A DNA stretch of 64,000 bases from Sporomusa sphaeroides DSM 2875 (GTDB lineage: Bacteria > Bacillota > Negativicutes > Sporomusales > Sporomusaceae). The position numbers and the translations under genes were made by a program. The DNA lies in NCBI RefSeq assembly GCF_001941975.2, contig NZ_CP146991.1:1241501-1305500 (forward strand), given 5' to 3'. This document shows, one piece after another, positions 592-38,196 of this stretch. Under the pieces are notes generated by a model. The model saw only the letters and a list, made by a program, of their open reading frames with translations, searched no databases and had not been told where the DNA came from. Numbering within the stretch: position 1 is the stretch's first letter; every line of letters begins with the position of its first letter.

Positions 592-1539
592 ATGAAATTA
601 GGCAATGTGGGCAAGGGGTTTATCGGTCTTTTATGTATCTGTGTAGTTTTAATGAGCGCCGCTCCGGTGTGGGCGGGTAACGCGGACATTGGTAATAGCC
701 CTGCTGTTGCCGATGAAACCGCTAGCTCGGATGATACGAAAGCCACTGCTGCAGATAGTAACGTTACGGAAATTGGTACTTATGCAAATGCTGAAGGTGA
801 AAATGCAACAGCGGTTGGCACTAATGCCAATGCTGTAGGCAAAAACGTTACGGCGATTGGCACTTATGCCAATGCTACCGGTGAAAACACTACGGCGATT
901 GGTGCCCATGCGACTGCTACCGGCAACAACGCTACAGCCATTGGTGACTATGCAAAAGCTACGGCTGAGAATAGTGTGGCCTTAGGCGCCGGCTCAGAAA
1001 CGGGTAATCGGACAAATACCGTATCTGTTGGCGCGCCGGGAGCAGAGCGCCAAATTACCAATGTTGCCGACGGGGTGGCACCGACAGATGCTGTCAACGT
1101 CCGTCAGTTGAATCGTCTCTCGCTGAGACTGGACCGCGTAGGTGCATTGGCAGCCGCCATGTCCGGTTTGGCTCCCCTGGCCTATAAGGCTGATGAACCG
1201 ACGCAAGGCTCGATTGCTACCGGTATGTATTCGGGTGAAACCGCGGTAGCCGGTGGTTTATATCATTATACGCATGAAGATGTTTTACTAAATGCTGCTT
1301 TCGCAATCTGTGGCAGTGAAAAAATGGGGCGTATGGGTGTATCTTTCCGTTTTCCCAAGGGTAAAGATAAAAACGTAACAGAAGCTCCCGTTACTCCGAC
1401 AGCACCTGTTGCTCCGGTGGATCCGGCTACTCCAACGGAAATTCAGGAACTGGAACCTGTAGCGGTGATTTCTGAAGCAACTTTACCCGCTCATCAGACT
1501 ACTGACGCGGCTGCTGCCGACACTGAAGTGAAAGGTTAG
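592..1539 (+). CDS. YadA-like trimeric autotransporter adhesin (short)
   Basis: 315 residues. A Sec signal peptide ends near APVWA (residue about 28). Residues 55-130 hold YadA-head repeats of about 14 residues (pattern NATAIGxxAxAxGxN). A neck follows (NTVSVGAPGAERQITNV, then APTDAVNVRQL), then a short stalk and a YadA-anchor beta-barrel (about 175-260; LAPLAYK, YSGETAVAGGLYHYTHEDVL). By family, three chains form one 12-strand outer-membrane barrel displaying the head. About 55 residues of Pro/Ala/Thr-rich tail follow the last barrel strand (SFRFPKG), whereas classical YadA proteins end at the barrel. The start has an ideal ribosome site. The next gene, 40 bases on, is a larger paralogue, so the two form an operon. 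Ligand unknown. Confidence 0.88.
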   Translation: MKLGNVGKGFIGLLCICVVLMSAAPVWAGNADIGNSPAVADETASSDDTKATAADSNVTEIGTYANAEGENATAVGTNANAVGKNVTAIGTYANATGENTTAIGAHATATGNNATAIGDYAKATAENSVALGAGSETGNRTNTVSVGAPGAERQITNVADGVAPTDAVNVRQLNRLSLRLDRVGALAAAMSGLAPLAYKADEPTQGSIATGMYSGETAVAGGLYHYTHEDVLLNAAFAICGSEKMGRMGVSFRFPKGKDKNVTEAPVTPTAPVAPVDPATPTEIQELEPVAVISEATLPAHQTTDAAAADTEVKG

Positions 1540-1579: not shown

Positions 1580-4500
1580 ATGAAACTGAGTAAATGGGGT
1601 AAAGTGTCAGTTATTTCGTTATGTGTAGCTGTGCAGACGCTTTATGTGGTGCCGGCATGGGCGGGCCCAAATGGAAACACTGAAAGTAATGGCGGTAAAG
1701 CCGGGCGACCGTATAACTTGGGGTGGACTACTAATAAAAACAACTCGGCAGACGGTGAAGGGGCCAGGGCGGGTAACAGTAAAACGTCTGTACTATTGGG
1801 AGGACATAATGAAGATAACCATGCAACCGGCAAGAAGGCTGAAGCAGGGAATGGTGATTATAATAAAGACAATATAGCCACTGGTGATTACGCACGGGCT
1901 GGAAACGGGCCTGGTGATGAAGGTGGTCCCAATATCGGCGGAGGCAATACAGGGAACAAAGCCGAAGGAGATTATGCGCAAGCCGGCAATGGTAATTTGA
2001 ATAAGAATAATGAAGCCGATGGCGACAATGCTCAGGCAGGGAATGGGACTGGCAATGAAGACAACAAAGCAGTTGGCAGTGGAGCAGAAGCGGGCAATGG
2101 CGAGTTAGGCTTTAATAAGCAGAACGAGGCCAACGGAACCAATGCGAAGGCAGGCAACGGTACACTAAATGTAGGCAATAAGGCCTCTGGTGATAATGCT
2201 CAGGCAGGCAATGGAATTGGTAATGAAAATAACAAAGCAGCAGGCAACGGAGCAGAAGCGGGCAATGGCGAGTTAGGCTTTAATAAGCAGAATGAGGCCA
2301 ACGGAACCAATGCCAAGGCAGGCAACGGTACACTAAATATAGGCAATAAGGCTTCTGGTGATAATGCTCAGGCAGGAAATGGAATTGGTAATGAAAATAA
2401 CAAAGCAGCAGGCAACGGAGCAGAAGCGGGCAATGGCGAGTTAGGCTTTAATAAGCAGAATGAGGCCAACGGAACCAATGCCAAGGCAGGCAACGGTACA
2501 CTAAATATAGGCAATAAGGCTTCTGGTGATAATGCTCAGGCAGGAAATGGAATTGGTAATGAAAATAACAAAGCAGCAGGCAACGGAGCAGAAGCGGGCA
2601 ATGGCGAGTTAGGCTTTAATAAGCAGAATGAGGCCAACGGAACCAATGCCAAGGCAGGCAACGGTACACTAAATATAGGCAATAAGGCTTCTGGTGATAA
2701 TGCTCAGGCAGGAAATGGAATTGGTAATGAAAATAACAAAGCAGCAGGCAACGGAGCAGAAGCGGGCAATGGTGAGTTAGGCTTTAATAAGCAGAACGAG
2801 GCCAACGGAACCAATGCCAAGGCCGGCAATGGTACACTAAATGTAGGCAATAAGGCCAATGGTGATAATGCTCAGGCAGGGAATGGGATTGGTAATAAAG
2901 ATAACAAAGCAGCAGGAAACGGAGCAAAAGCCGGTAATGGTATAATCAATACAGGAAACGAAGCCTATGGCGACAATGCCCAAGCAGGGAATGGGATTGG
3001 TAATAAAGATAACAAGGCAGCAGGAAACGGAGCAAAAGCCGGTAATGGTATAATCAATACAGGAAACGAAGCCTATGGCGACAATGCCCAAGCAGGGAAT
3101 GGGATTGGTAATAAAGATAACAAGGCAGCAGGAAACGGAGCAAAAGCCGGTAATGGTATAATCAATACAGGAAACGAAGCCTATGGCGACAATGCCCAAG
3201 CAGGGAATGGGATTGGTAATAAAGATAACAAAGCAGCAGGAAACGGAGCGAAGGCTGGCAATGGCATAATCAATACAGGAAACGAAGCCTATGGCGACAA
3301 TGCCCAGGCGGGGAATGGGATTGGTAATAAAGATAACAAAGCAGCGGGAATCGGAGCAAAAGCCGGTAATGGTATAATCAATGCAGGAAATGAAGCCTAT
3401 GGTGACAACGCCCAGGCAGGGAATGGGATTGGTAATAAAGATAACAAAGCAGCAGGAAACGGAGCGAAGGCTGGCAATGGCATAATCAATACAGGAAACG
3501 AAGCCTATGGCGACAATGCCCAGGCGGGGAATGGGATTGGTAATAAAGATAACAAAGCAGCAGGAAACGGAGCGAAGGCTGGCAATGGCATAATCAATAC
3601 AGGAAACGAAGCCTATGGCGACAACGCCCAAGCGGGGAATGGGATTGGTAATAAAGATAACAAAGCAGCGGGAATCGGAGCAAAAGCCGGTAATGGTATA
3701 ATCAATGCAGGAAATGAAGCCTACGGCAATAATGCTCAGGCAGGGAATGGAATCGGCAACGAAAATAATACAGCAGTTGGCAGTGGAGCAAAAGCTGGCA
3801 ATGGCATAATCAATACAGGAAACGAAGCCTATGGCGACAATGCCCAGGCAGGGAATGGGATTGGTAATAAAGATAACAAGGCAGCAGGAGACGGAGCAAA
3901 AGCTGGCAATGGTATAATCAATACAGGAAACGAAGGCTATGGCGACAATGCCCAAGCAGGGAATGGGATTGGTAATAAAGATAACAAGGCAGCAGGAAAC
4001 GGAGCAAAGGCTGGCAATGGCATAATCAATACAGGAAACGAAGCCTATGGCGACAATGCCCAGGCTGGGAATGGGATTGGTAATAAAGATAACAAAGCAG
4101 CAGGAGACGGAGCAAAAGCTGGCAATGGTATAATCAATGCAGGAAATGAAGCCTATGGCACTAATGCTCAAGCAGGCAATGGGATTGGCAACGCTGAAAA
4201 TACTGCAGTAGGTGTTAATGCAGTAGCAGGCAATGGTGTGCTAAATGATCGGAACCTGGCAAAGGGTCAAAAGGCTGCTGCCGGTAATGGAATTGACAAT
4301 GATGACAATACAGCTATCGGTCATGGAGTGGCAGCAGGCAATGGTATTGATAACGACAGAAATGTTGCAAAGGGTTATGAAGCAGCCGCCGGCAATGGCA
4401 TGTTAAATGACCGGAACCAGGCAAAGGGCAAGAATATTGCAGCCGGTAACGGTATTGATAATGACGACAATACAGCTATCGGTTATGAAGCAGCCGCCGG

Positions 4501-6403
4501 CAACGGTATGTTAAATGACCGGAACCAGGCAAAAGGCAAGAATATTGCAGCCGGTAACGGTATTGATAATGACGACAATACAGCTATCGGTTATGAAGCA
4601 GCCGCCGGCAATGGCATGTTAAATGACCGGAACCAGGCAAAGGGCAAAAATGTTGTAGCTGGTAACGGTATTGATAATGACGACAATACCGCAATCGGCC
4701 AAAAAGCAGCCGCCGGCAATGGTATGTTAAATGACCGGAACCAGGCAAAAGGCAAGAATGTTGCAGCCGGTAACGGTATTGACAATGATGGTAACACAGC
4801 TATCGGTCGTGAAGCAGCAGCAGGCAATGGTGCGCTAAATGACAAGAATATGGCAGTAGGTCACGAAGTAGCGGCCGGTAATGGCTTCGATAACGACAGA
4901 AATGTCGCCAAAGGCCATGAGGCAGCCGCCGGCAACGGCATGTTAAATGACCGGAACCAGGCAAAAGGCAAGAATGTTGCAGCTGGTAACGGTATTGACA
5001 ATGATGGTAACACAGCTATCGGCCATGAAGCGGCAGCAGGCAATGGCGCGTTTAATGACAAGAACAAGGCAATAGGCCATGAAGCAGCTGCCGGTAATGG
5101 TAAGAAGAACGATAACAATTTCGCAATTGGCATCGGCGAAAAGCATAATGAAGAGCCGGAGCCTGTTTATGCAACAAAAGGCGAAGCTGGTAAGCAGGAA
5201 GGAAACCATAAGGGGAATCGGGCAGACGTTGCCGCCGGTAACGGTTATGATAATAACTGGAATGCGGCAGTAGGTCAAAACGCCTATGCCGGCAACGGCG
5301 CATTTAATGATGGCAACCTGGCGATAGGCAGCAAAGTAGCGGCCGGCAATGGCACCGGCAATGATCAAAATGTGGCAGTTGGCTATAAAGCACTTGCTGG
5401 TAATGGTTTTGATAATAATCAAAACATAGCTGTGGGTGAAAAAGCAGCCGCCGGCAATGGCGCAAAAAATGATAACAACCTGGCAGTAGGCATAAATAAT
5501 TACGGTGATGATGAGCAGCCAACCTTCGATAATGAAGCAAAAGCCTTCAGCAGCCAAGTCAATGAGAAAAAACTGGGTAGAAAAGTTAATGCTGCAGCCG
5601 GTAACGGCTATGATAACAACGAAAATGCAGCTATTGGTCATCAAACGGCAGCCGGCAACGGCAAGTTCAATGACGGGAACCTGGCAGTTGGTCATGAAGC
5701 CGCCGCCGGCAACGGTGAGGGCAATATAGGTAATACGGCAGTTGGCTATCAGGCTCAGGCTGGCAATGGCAAAGGCGGGATAGGCAATACTGCAATCGGT
5801 AATCAAGCAAGGGCTTCCGGCTCAAATAGTGTTGCCGTAGGCCATAATTCTGCAACAGGCGGCCGCAGTAATGCCGTCTCTGTTGGGGAAGCCGGTAATG
5901 AACGGCAAATTATTAATGTACAAAGTGGTGTTTATCCTACAGATGTTATTAACATGAGCCAGCTTGACCGGCTGGATAGCCGGACCGATAAGGTAGGTGC
6001 TATGACAGCGGCTATCTCCGGTTTAGCGCCGTTGGCTTATAAGCCGGATCAGCCCACCCAAGCAGCCTTTGCCTGGGGTACGTATTCCGGCGAGAACGCA
6101 TTTGCCTTAGGTTTTTACCACTATATCCAACAAGATGTTTTATTGAATGCCGCTTTCTCTTTCTCCGGACATGAGCAGATGGGGCGTTTTGCTTTGTCAC
6201 TACGCTTTAGTACCGGCAGCAATAAGAAAGATATCGAAACTGAAATCAGTGACCCAGGTACGGTAAAGACAGAAACCGTCGAAGTTGCTGAAATCACTAC
6301 AACACCTGAACCCTCCGGATTGGTCGAAGCAGCAAGTATAAACAATACCGAAGGAAGCTTAGGGTTTGCCGGAGCCATGCAAGTTGGGGCCGGCGCTGCC
6401 TAA
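1580..6403 (+). CDS. Giant AGNG-repeat trimeric autotransporter adhesin
   Basis: 1607 residues. The signal peptide ends at VPAWA (residue about 28). Most of the protein (about 30-1430) is a chain of 18-residue units of pattern NxAxGxxAxAGNGxxNxx, a longer and Asn/Gly-richer version of the YadA-head repeat. Two non-repeat inserts interrupt it (around GEKHNEEPEPVY and NNYGDDEQPTFD). The end repeats the short paralogue: SNSVAVGHNSATGG, neck (AVSVGEAGNERQIINV), anchor barrel (LAPLAYKPDQPTQ, YSGENAFALGFYHYIQQDVL, SLRFSTG) and a tail of about 60 residues. Near-identical 168-bp and 108-bp DNA units make it prone to recombination and length change. It is expected as a long trimeric surface fibre for adhesion or biofilm (inference). 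The start follows tggagg with good spacing. Confidence 0.88.
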   Translation: MKLSKWGKVSVISLCVAVQTLYVVPAWAGPNGNTESNGGKAGRPYNLGWTTNKNNSADGEGARAGNSKTSVLLGGHNEDNHATGKKAEAGNGDYNKDNIATGDYARAGNGPGDEGGPNIGGGNTGNKAEGDYAQAGNGNLNKNNEADGDNAQAGNGTGNEDNKAVGSGAEAGNGELGFNKQNEANGTNAKAGNGTLNVGNKASGDNAQAGNGIGNENNKAAGNGAEAGNGELGFNKQNEANGTNAKAGNGTLNIGNKASGDNAQAGNGIGNENNKAAGNGAEAGNGELGFNKQNEANGTNAKAGNGTLNIGNKASGDNAQAGNGIGNENNKAAGNGAEAGNGELGFNKQNEANGTNAKAGNGTLNIGNKASGDNAQAGNGIGNENNKAAGNGAEAGNGELGFNKQNEANGTNAKAGNGTLNVGNKANGDNAQAGNGIGNKDNKAAGNGAKAGNGIINTGNEAYGDNAQAGNGIGNKDNKAAGNGAKAGNGIINTGNEAYGDNAQAGNGIGNKDNKAAGNGAKAGNGIINTGNEAYGDNAQAGNGIGNKDNKAAGNGAKAGNGIINTGNEAYGDNAQAGNGIGNKDNKAAGIGAKAGNGIINAGNEAYGDNAQAGNGIGNKDNKAAGNGAKAGNGIINTGNEAYGDNAQAGNGIGNKDNKAAGNGAKAGNGIINTGNEAYGDNAQAGNGIGNKDNKAAGIGAKAGNGIINAGNEAYGNNAQAGNGIGNENNTAVGSGAKAGNGIINTGNEAYGDNAQAGNGIGNKDNKAAGDGAKAGNGIINTGNEGYGDNAQAGNGIGNKDNKAAGNGAKAGNGIINTGNEAYGDNAQAGNGIGNKDNKAAGDGAKAGNGIINAGNEAYGTNAQAGNGIGNAENTAVGVNAVAGNGVLNDRNLAKGQKAAAGNGIDNDDNTAIGHGVAAGNGIDNDRNVAKGYEAAAGNGMLNDRNQAKGKNIAAGNGIDNDDNTAIGYEAAAGNGMLNDRNQAKGKNIAAGNGIDNDDNTAIGYEAAAGNGMLNDRNQAKGKNVVAGNGIDNDDNTAIGQKAAAGNGMLNDRNQAKGKNVAAGNGIDNDGNTAIGREAAAGNGALNDKNMAVGHEVAAGNGFDNDRNVAKGHEAAAGNGMLNDRNQAKGKNVAAGNGIDNDGNTAIGHEAAAGNGAFNDKNKAIGHEAAAGNGKKNDNNFAIGIGEKHNEEPEPVYATKGEAGKQEGNHKGNRADVAAGNGYDNNWNAAVGQNAYAGNGAFNDGNLAIGSKVAAGNGTGNDQNVAVGYKALAGNGFDNNQNIAVGEKAAAGNGAKNDNNLAVGINNYGDDEQPTFDNEAKAFSSQVNEKKLGRKVNAAAGNGYDNNENAAIGHQTAAGNGKFNDGNLAVGHEAAAGNGEGNIGNTAVGYQAQAGNGKGGIGNTAIGNQARASGSNSVAVGHNSATGGRSNAVSVGEAGNERQIINVQSGVYPTDVINMSQLDRLDSRTDKVGAMTAAISGLAPLAYKPDQPTQAAFAWGTYSGENAFALGFYHYIQQDVLLNAAFSFSGHEQMGRFALSLRFSTGSNKKDIETEISDPGTVKTETVEVAEITTTPEPSGLVEAASINNTEGSLGFAGAMQVGAGAA
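2063..2902 (+). repeat. Tandem array of five 168-bp units
   Basis: Five in-frame copies of a 56-codon unit (20+18+18 residues; includes AGNGELGFNKQNEANG) lie head to tail. Copies two to four are almost identical at DNA level; the first and last carry a few changes. Confidence 0.9.
2903..4198 (+). repeat. Tandem array of twelve 108-bp units
   Basis: Twelve in-frame copies of a 36-codon unit (two 18-residue repeats; includes AGNGIINTGNEAYGDNAQ). Several neighbours are identical apart from synonymous changes, showing recent tandem duplication. More diverged 18-residue repeats continue to about 5810. Confidence 0.9.
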
Positions 6404-6600: not shown

Positions 6601-7410
6601 TTACTTGTTCAGACGATGGGCGGCATGATAAGTCGGTCCGACATAAGCATTCAGCGGGAATGAGGCCTGGATGGCGGCGGTAATGAATTCTTTTGCTTGT
6701 TTAACGGCCTCGTGCACAGGCAAGCCCTTGGCCAGTCCGGCGGTGATCGCCGATGCGTAGGTGCAGCCGGCGCCATGAGTGTAAGTTGTATTGAATTTCG
6801 GGGAACGCAGGATGGTACATTCGTTGCCATCGTACAATACATCGACAGCATCCGGGGTGTCGATTTTGGCTCCGCCTTTTATTAGTACATTCTTGGGACC
6901 CAACTTGTGTATTTCGACAGCGGCAGCCTTCATATCCTCAACAGAACGAATGGAACGAATGCCGCTTAACTGGGTGGCTTCAAAAATATTAGGTGTTATG
7001 AGGCGAGCGCGGGGGGCCAGTATTTCGCGCAGGCCAATCGTTGTTTCCGGGTGGAGAACCTCATCGGTGCCTTTGCAGGCCATAACCGGGTCAATTACGA
7101 CATTGTTAACCCCATATTTATCAATTTTTTTGGCGACAAGCGAGATGACTTCGGTAGTTGCCAGCATGCCTGTTTTCAAGGCATCAATGCCAATTCCGCC
7201 AAGTACGGTTTCCATTTGCGCTTCCAGTACTTCCAGCGGCAGGGGATAGATATCATGGGACCAGTTATTGTTTGGGTTTTGTGAAACAATGACAGTGATG
7301 GCAGTCATGCCATATACGCCTAGCTCCTGAAAGGTTTTTAAGTCTGCTTGCAGTCCTGCGCCGCCGCTTGTATCTGAACCGGCTACGGCAAGTGCCTTGA
7401 ATATTCTCAT
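6601..7410 (-). CDS. pdxK: Pyridoxal/pyridoxine kinase, dual-cysteine ThiD-like type
   Basis: 269 residues, ribokinase fold of the ThiD branch (VAGSDTSGGAGLQADLKTF at the N-terminus). Two features fit the dual-cysteine pyridoxal kinases known from Staphylococcus and Bacillus rather than true HMP-phosphate kinase: a lid cysteine in DPVMACKGTDEVL and an active-site cysteine in HGAGCTYASAI, with the late YVGPTYHAAH motif. The reaction is ATP-dependent phosphorylation of pyridoxal/pyridoxine to the 5'-phosphate in the cytosol (B6 salvage). Divergent transcription with a MocR-type PLP-sensing regulator supports B6 over thiamin. A ThiD activity on HMP cannot be excluded from sequence alone. Confidence 0.82.
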   Translation of the reverse strand: MRIFKALAVAGSDTSGGAGLQADLKTFQELGVYGMTAITVIVSQNPNNNWSHDIYPLPLEVLEAQMETVLGGIGIDALKTGMLATTEVISLVAKKIDKYGVNNVVIDPVMACKGTDEVLHPETTIGLREILAPRARLITPNIFEATQLSGIRSIRSVEDMKAAAVEIHKLGPKNVLIKGGAKIDTPDAVDVLYDGNECTILRSPKFNTTYTHGAGCTYASAITAGLAKGLPVHEAVKQAKEFITAAIQASFPLNAYVGPTYHAAHRLNK

Positions 7411-7543
7411 AAGTAACTCCCCTTTGGTTTATGTGTATTTGTAAATATAGCTTTCAAAAAATATAGTTGTATTATAAAATAAAAATGAACCTTTTAAAAT
7501 ATACAGAATAGATAACTTTGATAGGTACAGTTTGGAGGATGTC

Positions 7544-8947
7544 ATGGATGTAATTATGCTTGACTTTACTAGCAAAGCCCCCCTGTATATGCAGCTATAT
7601 CACTACTTTAAGCAGGAAATTGAACAAAACCGCTTGCACGAAGGGGAGAAGCTGCCATCTATCCGGGGACTGTCGGCGAGTCTTTCGGTGAGTAAAATAA
7701 CTGTGGAAAAAGCGTATCAACAGCTGATGAGCGAGGGCTATATTTTAAATTGCAATCGTTCGCGCTATCTGGTGAACAAGTTTGATGGCATTAGTATCAA
7801 AAAAAGTACCGGCTTCATCCCTGAGCGTGAGGTTGACAGGCAGCCGCCGGCAGAGTGCAACATAGTATATGATTTTGCCAGTGGCGGGATGGACATTGAT
7901 GGCTTTGATTTTTCTTTGTGGAAACGCTATATCAACAAAGTGTTTTTAAACAAAGAACGCCTTGTCGGGTACGGGCATATTCAAGGCGAGCCGGAGCTGC
8001 GCCGGGAGATTGCAGCCTATATCCGTAATTCAAGAGGTGTCTATACCTATCCGGAGCAAATTATCATCGGTCCCGGGGTGCAAAGTTTGTTAAATACTCT
8101 TTGCAGTTTATTGAAGTCGGAAACCAATAGTATTGCCTTTGAAGACCCGGGTTTTAAAAATGGCAGACGCATTTTTGCCAATTATTCGTATAACATCATT
8201 GCCATACCGATGCGCAAAGACGGCATTGATATGGACAGTTTGCTGGGCAGTGGGGCGAAGCTTGTTTATGTAAGCCCGTCACACCAATTTCCTACCGGTT
8301 ATATTATGCCTGTTGGTAAAAGAACACAATTGTTGAATTGGGCTGAGCGGGTAAATGGTATTATTATCGAAGATGATTATGACAGTGAGTTTCGCTATTA
8401 CGGGCGTCCGATTCCGGCGTTAAAAGGCCTTGATAACAAGGAAACCGTAGTATATCTGGGGTCCTTATCCAAGATAATACCGCCATCCATCCGTGTCAGC
8501 TATATGGTGCTGCCGGAGAAGCTGCTTGCCGTTTTTCAGCAAAACGCGGCATTATACAACCAGGCGGCTTCAACCATTGAGCAGCTCGCACTGGCTCAAT
8601 TTATGGCAGATGGCTGTTTAGAGCGTCAAATCCGGCGGTTGCGTAAATTATATTATGGAAAAAAATTAATACTGGTAGAGGCAGTCAAGAACATTTTAGG
8701 CAATCATGTGGAATTTGAGGGAAGTGATTCCGGGCTTCATACCATTTTGCACGTCAAATCGGAACTAAAAGCCGGGCAATTGGTGGAACGGGCGCTGGCA
8801 AAAGGCTGTCGGGTGGCTTCTGTTCAAGATTATTATTTGCAGAATACACCGGAAAACACGTCACGTATCCTCCTTTATTTCTCGAAAATTCCTGCCGGTG
8901 AAATAGAACCCGCGGTTAAGCTGCTAAAAGCTGCGTGGTTTGGGTAG
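7544..8947 (+). CDS. MocR-family (GntR-aminotransferase) regulator, PdxR-like
   Basis: About 467 residues. An N-terminal GntR winged helix (APLYMQLYHYFKQEIE, GEKLPSIRGLSASLSVSKIT) is fused to a fold-type I aminotransferase domain. It keeps the PLP lysine region (YLGSLSKIIPPSIRVSYMV), the DDYDSEF motif and the substrate Arg region near the end. An upstream in-frame TTG (7532) overlaps the ggagg sequence, so ATG 7544, six bases after ggagg, is the better start. MocR proteins bind PLP in the aminotransferase fold and switch vitamin B6 genes. Its divergent neighbour is a pyridoxal kinase, so it probably controls B6 salvage (inference). The 133-bp gap should hold both promoters and the operator. 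Confidence 0.85.
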   Translation: MDVIMLDFTSKAPLYMQLYHYFKQEIEQNRLHEGEKLPSIRGLSASLSVSKITVEKAYQQLMSEGYILNCNRSRYLVNKFDGISIKKSTGFIPEREVDRQPPAECNIVYDFASGGMDIDGFDFSLWKRYINKVFLNKERLVGYGHIQGEPELRREIAAYIRNSRGVYTYPEQIIIGPGVQSLLNTLCSLLKSETNSIAFEDPGFKNGRRIFANYSYNIIAIPMRKDGIDMDSLLGSGAKLVYVSPSHQFPTGYIMPVGKRTQLLNWAERVNGIIIEDDYDSEFRYYGRPIPALKGLDNKETVVYLGSLSKIIPPSIRVSYMVLPEKLLAVFQQNAALYNQAASTIEQLALAQFMADGCLERQIRRLRKLYYGKKLILVEAVKNILGNHVEFEGSDSGLHTILHVKSELKAGQLVERALAKGCRVASVQDYYLQNTPENTSRILLYFSKIPAGEIEPAVKLLKAAWFG

Positions 8948-8961
8948 TATGCAGCGGCAGC

Positions 8962-9017
8962 TAAAAAGACCAAGCCGCTCACCCGGCGCAAACGCGGGAC
9001 AGGAGAGTGGCTTGGTC
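8962..9017 (-). terminator. terminator of the dnaK-dnaJ operon
   Basis: The stem gaccaagccgctc / gagtggcttggtc (G-U pairs allowed), read on the minus strand, continues into ggtctttttag. Confidence 0.8.
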
Positions 9018-9061
9018 GGTGGCTGGACAAGAGCCTGATGCAGATTTTGAATCGCGGGGGC

Positions 9062-10093
9062 TTATGAAGCTATTCCCGCTTGATCTGTATTGACAGCGGT
9101 TGTTTTGGTTTCCCGTATTTTCCGGTAAAGTGCCTTTTCAGCTTCTGACAGTTCGCGGGGGATATCGATACGGATTTTTATATACAGGTCGCCAACCCCC
9201 TGTTTTTTCGGCAGGCCTTTATTTTTTACCCGGAGTCTTTGACCGGTGTGAGTACCTGGCTGCACTTTAAGCTGGACTGAACCATGCGGTGTGGTAACAT
9301 TGATGGTGTCGCCCAGGACGGCTTGCTCAGGCTGAAGCGTGAGATCGGTTTCCACATCACTGCCCTGTATTTGCCAGACAGGATGGGGAGCAACCTGGAT
9401 TTGCAGGTAGAGGTCGCCTGCAGGGGCTGCGCCATAGCCTTGGCCGCCTAAGCCTTTCAGTCGCAATGATGCCCCGGGATAGAGTCCGGCAGGAATTTTT
9501 ACTTTAACTGTTTTGCTGCCTGCCATAGCGCCTGTACCGCCGCAGGCCTGACAGAGGCCGCGTTGGCTGAAGCGCCGCCCTTCGCACGCGGTGCAGACGG
9601 TGGAGGCTGCCAGGTGCAGTTCCTTTTCCGCTCCCCGGAGGAGCTCCTCTATCGCCAAACTTATTTCTGCCTGGACATCTTCGCCTTTGCTGTTCCTTTG
9701 CCGTGTACGGCTTTCATAGTGCTGTTTGGCCGCAAAATCCTGACCAAACAGGCTGGAAAAGAAATGGCTGAATTCAAAGCCATTGGGATCAAAGTCGGCA
9801 TTTCCCTGATAGGTATAGGTACGGGCAGCACCCTGAGCGGGGTCAAAAGGGAATTCATCGCCTGAGCGCCAATTCATGCCTAATTGATCATACTTGGCCC
9901 GCTTATCAGGGTCTCCCAACACTTCATAAGCTTCATTGATGAGCTTGAATTGTTCTTCCGCAGCGGCCTTGGCATCGCCTTGATGAAGATCAGGGTGATG
10001 CTGGCGGGCCAGTTTGCGGTAGGCTTGCTTGATTTCTTTTTCCGAGGCGGTTTTGGCAACCCCCAGTGTTTCGTAATAATCAATATATTTCAT
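9062..10093 (-). CDS. dnaJ: DnaJ/CbpA-type Hsp40 co-chaperone with a reduced zinc finger
   Basis: 343 residues. The J domain (residues 4-70) has HPD in [16 protein letters not shown] Gly/Phe-containing linker follows, then a short Cys region and the two beta substrate-binding domains ([12 protein letters not shown] through [12 protein letters not shown]). The Cys region holds only CTAC and CQACGGTG, two CxxC pairs and so one zinc site, where classical DnaJ has four CxxCxGxG units and two sites. By family it delivers clients to DnaK and stimulates its ATPase. It lies 38 bases after dnaK in the same operon. No grpE or hrcA is present, so this may be a second, dedicated DnaK-DnaJ pair (inference). 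The start has AGGGG eight bases upstream. Confidence 0.88.
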
Positions 10094-37447: not shown

Positions 37448-37590
37448 GCTATCCCTCATTTCTTTGTTGATTATCCCGGGTCATAGGATACAGGTAAATT
37501 ATATTTTCCGTATGTAAGCAGATTTTTCCTCTTTTTGGCGGTTCTGTAATCTGACGTAAAAGGCTCTCAGATAGGGTGCTATTCAACATA

Positions 37591-37632
37591 AAGAAACCGC
37601 CGGCAATTAGTTACAAACTAATGTCGGCGGTT
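37591..37632 (-). terminator. terminator of the zinc-ribbon/Gly-rich gene
   Basis: Stem aaccgccggcaattagt / actaatgtcggcggtt with one G-T mismatch position; on the minus strand it runs into tttctttatg. Confidence 0.75.
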
Positions 37633-37650
37633 CTGCTGGTTATCGGCGTA

Positions 37651-38016
37651 TTATTCGTCTGCGTCTTCGTCCTCCGCCAGCTCACTCATTACCTTGACTT
37701 TATGTCCATAGCCGCCAGGCCGGACAAACCCACCGGGGCCAAAACCGCCAAAGCCGAAGCCGCCAGGTCCGAAACTACCAGGGCCGAAGTTACCAGGACC
37801 GAAGCCGCCGGAGCCAAAGCTGCCAGGTACATGATTTCTGCAACGCGGGCATATATGATGAAACTGGGGTTCATATTCAAAACCGCATACGGAACAAACC
37901 TTAACTACTATACGACAGCATACTTCATAAATTTTGAATTTTTCATTGAATTTTCCTATACATTTTGGTGGTTTACAACCATGATGCATAGGTCTATCTT
38001 CATTACAACGCTCCAC
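37651..38016 (-). CDS. Small zinc-ribbon protein with a GFGPG-repeat tail
   Basis: 121 residues. GTG 38016 sits six bases after a perfect aaaggagg, which supports this strand over the overlapping plus-strand frame. The N-terminal half is Cys-rich (CKPPKC, CC, VCSVCGFEY, ICPRCRNH), enough for one or two zinc sites. The second half is eight or so copies of GFGPG/SFGPG, ending in an acidic tail (SELAEDEDADE). There is no signal peptide or membrane segment. The Gly-Phe-Pro region resembles low-complexity coat or matrix proteins. Function unknown; a spore-coat or structural role is only a guess. Confidence 0.72.
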   Translation of the reverse strand: MERCNEDRPMHHGCKPPKCIGKFNEKFKIYEVCCRIVVKVCSVCGFEYEPQFHHICPRCRNHVPGSFGSGGFGPGNFGPGSFGPGGFGFGGFGPGGFVRPGGYGHKVKVMSELAEDEDADE

Positions 38017-38196
38017 ACATGCAACCTCCTTTATGCTTTTTAATACATTATATGTTAACTTTTATTTTATGTTACAATAGGAAAATAGAACTCTTGTCAG
38101 GAAGGCTATCTCTGGGAGAAAAGAGCAAACAGATGCGTGTTGATATGCAGCTGTCTGCTCATGAGCCTAATCGTACAGTGATTGCTTCAGTTTTTG

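Follow-up and report, generated by a model that had tools for sequence, protein, structure and literature searches.

The question raised by this locus of Sporomusa sphaeroides DSM 2875 is whether a long and highly repetitive gene encodes a new type of adhesin head or a modified version of a known one. The window, that is the whole stretch of 64,000 nucleotides that was analysed, contains an intact open reading frame of 1607 amino acids with an ATG start at positions 1580-6403 on the plus strand. Our analysis identified this frame, on the basis of sequence features, as a gene for a trimeric autotransporter adhesin (TAA), since it encodes a signal peptide, a degenerate neck, an anchor and a final head layer recognised by Pfam. 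It is the second and larger gene of a TAA pair, whose parts are as follows.

592-1539, plus strand: small TAA, first gene of the pair, 315 aa, with signal peptide, about five 14-residue YadA layers, neck, anchor and a 61-aa tail
1580-6403, plus strand: large TAA, second in the pair and separated from the small TAA by 40 bp, with a GGAGG ribosome-binding site just before the ATG
1580-1663, plus strand: signal peptide, aa 1-28 (...VVPAWA/G), by inspection (basic start, hydrophobic core, AWA/G site)
1664-1816, plus strand: N-terminal cap, aa 29-79, ahead of the first regular unit and kept in the large TAAs of loci L079 and L086
1817-5785, plus strand: head body, aa 80-1402, with 67 strict 18-residue AGNG layers (some of 20 residues) and two interrupted ones
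2009-2848, plus strand: five 168-bp units, each of 56 aa (20+18+18)
2849-4144, plus strand: twelve 108-bp units, each of 36 aa (18+18)
4253-5116, plus strand: eight 108-bp units, more diverged
5138-5227, plus strand: 30-residue insertion, aa 1187-1216, between G-x-x and A of one layer, placed from a 48-residue interval
5498-5590, plus strand: 31-residue insertion, aa 1307-1337, at the same layer position as the 30-residue insertion, with an AF2 pLDDT of about 30
5786-5869, plus strand: two canonical 14-residue YadA layers, aa 1403-1430, the last before the neck (Pfam YadA_head, 26.0 bits)
5870-5983, plus strand: neck, aa 1431-1468 (YadA_stalk, PF05662, 20.2 bits against a cut-off of 28.4)
6038-6214, plus strand: YadA membrane anchor, aa 1487-1545 (PF03895, 29.7 bits against a cut-off of 22.7)
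6215-6400, plus strand: C-terminal tail, aa 1546-1607 (62 residues), pI 4.05, by inspection neither SLH nor coiled coil

The assignment to a known export system, made in a first-pass annotation of this DNA, is upheld by the anchor, which scores above the Pfam cut-off, and by the signal peptide seen on inspection. The same annotation had described neck and anchor as normal, which did not hold: the neck scores below its cut-off, a stalk is missing and a 62-residue tail follows the anchor. Despite its low Pfam score the neck region aligns to the solved TAA necks 4usx, 7o23 and 2yo0, and the C-terminal part of the protein gave alignments to solved TAA heads and necks. No coiled-coil stalk was seen by inspection in the large TAA; the neck leads straight into the anchor, so that nearly the whole passenger is head. 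The lack of a stalk weakens the likeness to the classic lollipop-shaped TAAs but not the membership in type Vc, where a stalk is usual and not required. The tail behind the anchor is acidic and rich in Pro, Thr and Glu. Among loci L104-L132, every correctly oriented Negativicutes TAA that was read had a post-anchor tail (42-85 residues, mostly coiled-coil-like), and studies of Veillonella describe Negativicutes TAAs that continue past the anchor with an additional SLH or coiled-coil part (PMC5491611, PMC7549365). The tail differs from the proteobacterial norm and is a known trait of the Negativicutes. The term "giant" used for the adhesin appears too strong: with a rise of 4.8 A per YadA-type layer (PMC9543794) about 71 layers give an estimated rod of about 34 nm, and open frames of Negativicutes TAAs reach 6573 aa.

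The head body was collected with the strict pattern N.[AG].G..[AVIT].[AV]GNG, or NxAxGxx[AVIT]xAGNGxxNxx when written out. This yielded 67 units with a spacing of 18 residues except for five spacings of 20 and three interruptions (28, 66 and 67), which bears out the claim of an 18-residue AGNG period in place of 14. Conservation over the 67 units was 67 for N1, G5, A10, G11, N12 and G13, 66 for A3 and 60 for N16, where the invariance of N1, G5 and G11-G13 is partly built in because these positions belong to the collecting pattern. The motif AGNG occurs 80 times in the large TAA, always within the unit array, and the unit, written as a DNA pattern, is matched exactly at 50 places in the window and at none in 100 dinucleotide shuffles. 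Within the 168-bp units, layers of 20 residues (GNGELGFNKQN) alternate with layers of 18. Gly and Asn account for 22% and 21% of the protein, together 43% of its residues. The 18-residue body was recognised by none of the Pfam or NCBIfam models and three fragments of it had no Pfam match, in agreement with the view that the unit is not already a standard head repeat; the last canonical layers were the sole YadA_head match in the large TAA. The 18-residue layer is undescribed in the family databases and literature searched, though it may appear in the TAA domain compilation published as a dictionary by Bassler et al. in 2015.

At the DNA level, tandem repeat analysis (TRF) and comparison of the copies confirmed the five 168-bp and twelve 108-bp units that had been noted before. 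TRF reported 5.5 copies of a 168-bp unit (95% match), 12.4 copies of a 108-bp unit (90%) and 6.5 copies of a 108-bp unit in a second, more diverged set (80%). The two main arrays had been placed at 2063-4198; the arrays are there, and their correct span is 2009-4144. They had also been called so alike that recombination should change their length, which is true for two identical copies in each array and less so for the others: the first of the five 168-bp copies is 20 nt off, and in the twelve-copy array (2849-4144) the rest differ by 4-23 nt. Between copies we obtained dN 0.03 and dS 0.24 for the 168-bp array, dN 0.03 and dS 0.51 for the twelve-copy array, and dN 0.21 and dS 1.0 for the diverged array at 4253-5116. 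With dN/dS ratios of about 0.06 to 0.2, the units are under purifying selection, and some stretches of the array were copied recently. Units were most alike within their own genome in 111 of 176 cases by protein and 130 of 176 by DNA, which is consistent with separate amplification. Elsewhere in the window, a frame at 37576-38043 carries 15/30-bp tandem repeats (37742-37828) and has no Pfam match.

How the unit relates to known heads becomes visible when the layers are split into halves. The standard YadA layer has 14 residues and a fixed Gly at position 8 (PMC9543794), and reads AxGxxAx plus AxGxNSx (7+7); the present layer reads AxGxxAx plus AGNGxxNxxNx (7+11). The 18-residue unit is therefore best read, judging from the sequences, as a YadA layer with an unchanged first half and a second half that would have gained four residues. 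We draw this mainly from relatives that join both layer lengths in one head and not from a family search; a comparison of 18- and 14-residue layer profiles with hhalign found nothing (probability 0.2). In genome G021 a head has layers of 22, 19, 19, 19, 18 and 18 residues followed by layers of 14, and the small TAA of genome G024 has thirteen 18-residue layers that are again followed by 14s. The 30- and 31-residue insertions of the large TAA each interrupt a layer at its other turn, within GxxA, and not on the AGNG side.

Two further proteins were observed in this context. The 909-aa TAA at locus L080 of G021 (6783-9509) passes from head layers of 22, 19 and 18 residues to 14-residue layers and then into a long stretch of other short repeats. 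A protein from a Bacteroidetes MAG (L033) has NTAIG-type layers about 16-17 residues apart and is perhaps another case of a lengthened beta-roll layer.

The explanation that we favour, with a probability of roughly 0.65 for the whole, is a stalk-less type Vc TAA with a trimeric left-handed beta-roll of lengthened YadA layers, Gly/Asn ladders, a companion TAA and a changeable reach. The repeat, its core, the anchor, the gene pair, the purifying selection between units and the relatives were observed. Export route, trimer, roll, ladders, adhesion and length change we infer: the polypeptide would be exported by Sec, and its YadA anchor would insert into the membrane as a trimeric barrel, with three chains forming the rod of about 34 nm. 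This rod would be a left-handed beta-roll whose second half-layer has grown from 7 (AxGxNSx) to 11 residues (AGNGxxNxxNx). The invariant Gly and Asn might stack layer on layer as ladders, and the four extra residues would then be an ordered ridge and not a loose loop. The small companion TAA is encoded alongside, probably in one operon. The fibre may act as a surface adhesin or aggregation fibre, a role suggested by analogy to VtaA in Veillonella (PMC7549365), and its reach may change as units of 36 or 56 residues are gained or lost; length change between strains by this route is plausible by analogy to BadA (PMC8859334).

For the beta-roll, structure prediction gives an indication that has to be read with care. 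AF2 was given eight 18-residue units as a single chain, with alignment rows from the window, SKW2 and D110 that are themselves regular. It returned a model with pLDDT 98.2 and pTM 0.90, in which every coil has strands at about positions 3-7, 10-11 and 14-15; the scores of the five models spread from 98 down to 69. By TM-score the top Foldseek match was the YadA-like head of BoaA (3s6l; TM 0.64/0.61, probability 1.00, E 0.14). UspA1, LpxD, GlmU and a ryegrass ice-binding protein also matched, and E-values were weak, the best being 5e-3 for the ryegrass protein. UspA1, LpxD/GlmU and the ryegrass protein are left-handed folds. AF2 thus predicts the eight-unit fragment to be a confident, probably left-handed beta-roll closest to the BoaA head, a confidence that applies to the most regular fragment only. 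The more varied neck-proximal fragment of 264 residues, which includes the neck, reached a pLDDT of only 64, with no TAA head among the 50 fold matches listed, which are meaningless. AF2 is known to fold random sequences that are perfectly repeated into beta-solenoids with high confidence (PMC11795689), and because of this bias, the regular rows and the 98-69 spread between models the high confidence must be discounted. The proposal of a new head architecture went further than such a prediction carries.

A stronger form of that proposal, which we regard as tentative and rather unlikely, describes a distinct trimeric beta-solenoid: the four extra residues would add a third side to the stack, on which Gly/Asn ladders run the whole length of the rod, stalk-free heads of any length could be built, and a two-gene cassette would have spread in the Negativicutes. 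If true, this would establish a new structural class among adhesin heads. A rival reading that we also hold to be unlikely is an ordinary YadA beta-roll that carries a four-residue surface loop on each layer, with an unchanged core trimer, AGNG as a plain turn and 18 residues as one more loop length and no new architecture. The AxGxxAxA core common to the 14-residue layers would fit such a loop, as would the direct succession of both layer types within a single head, the occurrence of layers of 18, 19, 20, 22 and 28 residues and the precedent of UspA1, whose 15-residue layer has an extra Gly (PMC9543794). A loose loop should not, however, hold G11, N12 and G13 at 67/67 and N16 at 60/67, and N16 is found at 75-93% in three other genomes (where GNG is part of the search pattern).

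An improbable alternative is a single-chain left-handed beta-helix of three sides, similar to LpxA/GlmU, with trimer contacts only near the neck. Hexapeptide left-handed helices have 18 residues per turn, the length of the present unit, and the AF2 monomer shows three strand segments per coil, with GlmU and LpxD among its fold matches; yet the BoaA head has a higher TM-score (0.64) than either of these (at most 0.45), inspection gave no sign of the hexapeptide pattern [LIV]-G-x4, and the array passes into YadA layers, a kind that forms trimers in the heads solved so far. Least probable is that the array is no beta-roll and instead a SEL1-like helical repeat or a disordered Asn/Gly-rich spacer: weak profile matches to the SEL1-repeat structures 6ork (E 1.4e-5) and 1ouv (7e-4), a repeat whose period is 36 residues, were set aside as a coincidence of spacing, and the high Gly and Asn content disfavours helices, the basic unit is 18 and not 36, the units pass straight into YadA layers, and the low dN/dS between them argues against an unconstrained spacer.

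The lengthened layer appears to be rare. In a scan of the contigs of 84,980 species genomes with a degenerate DNA pattern, AGNG arrays were detected in three Negativicutes MAGs (SKW2, D110 and D180), and the matches in other phyla were scattered single ones, outside any AGNG array; two of these (L035 and L037) were absent from the ORF read-out. The wider search that had been suggested thus found no array outside the Negativicutes. A profile search detected the unit in 6 of 380 genomes from the Negativicutes (of these 380, YadA anchors occur in 142), in none of eight genomes of the same genus, and among 398 genomes drawn from the phylum in one doubtful match besides the window's own genome. This doubtful match, the sole other one in the Bacillota (G690, E 8e-4), could not be verified as a head. 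Viral contigs had no match to the pattern and plasmids no tblastn match. Within the reach of an exact pattern and this genome sample, 18-residue arrays are rare and found only in a few Negativicutes.

In several lineages the long head comes with a companion. The small TAA of the window scores above the Pfam cut-offs for YadA_head (82.7 bits), YadA_stalk (42) and YadA_anchor (32.5), and its tail resembles that of the large TAA. A small TAA precedes a large AGNG TAA also in G015 (SKW2) and G110, with 61% and 52% identity to the small TAA of the window, and the N-terminal 107 aa of the large TAA have 56-59% identity in these two genomes. The pair is thereby present in three lineages of two orders (G000, which is the window's genome, and G015, with G110 in another order); G024 has the same small-then-large arrangement, but there the contig ends within the large gene. 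In a tree of anchors, a single clade (100/98) unites the large TAAs of G000, G015 and G110, and the small TAAs of G000 and G015 pair (88/90), so that small and large members probably diverged before the lineages did. A third, divergent TAA lies beside the pair of G110 on the opposite strand (L079, 1924-2931).

The pair is absent from genomes of the same genus. In the window it sits between HAD and ThiD-MocR, and ThiD, MocR and HAD are adjacent in three same-genus genomes. Horizontal transfer or repeated loss would both fit this patchy occurrence. Three same-genus genomes (G003-G005; L040, L043 and L083-L085) encode a different tandem TAA pair. Orthology with these tandem TAAs was considered and rejected: none of the tested flanking genes was found next to them, and by their anchors they fall into a clade of their own (100/99). 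In G004 both tandem TAAs carry heads of the 14-residue type, and their anchors are followed by a glutamine-rich tail that resembles a coiled coil. The passenger of a TAA fragment in G007 (L038) is a long NN-rich heptad array (REQDKNNQDQSQNN...) that runs directly into the anchor.

The lengthened layer would widen the range of TAA head layers from 14-15 to 18-20 residues with the core kept. Family models miss heads of this kind, and such genes are therefore recognisable by their ends only. The array might serve as a natural series for relating layer length, Asn ladders and trimer packing and is a candidate for modular protein rods, and the conserved pair offers a system for asking why a short and a long TAA stay together.

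Several known systems share features with this adhesin. The Veillonella parvula TAAs (VtaA-VtaH) also come from the Negativicutes and also extend beyond the anchor (PMC7549365, PMC5491611); the extension is SLH or coiled coil there and a short acidic tail rich in Pro, Thr and Glu here. BadA of Bartonella henselae likewise has tandem units within a TAA gene, and their number varies between strains (PMC8859334); in BadA it is neck/stalk units that vary, whereas the repeated units of the present gene are head layers and known from one genome of the species. The closest counterpart of the unit is the YadA-like head repeat (Ylhead, PF05658), the left-handed parallel beta-roll of YadA, BoaA and BpaC, which has the same AxGxxAxA core with a fixed Gly (G@8, PMC9543794) and, as here, precedes a neck. 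Ylhead has 14 residues per layer and the present unit 18 with an AGNGxxN insert, and Pfam is blind to the present body. The conserved Asn positions could form ladders as in the head of BpaC. The head of UspA1 (3pr7/3ntn; PMC9543794) is a known case of lengthening in which an extra Gly is present: each of its layers has 15 residues, that is one more than the standard layer, compared to four more in the present unit.
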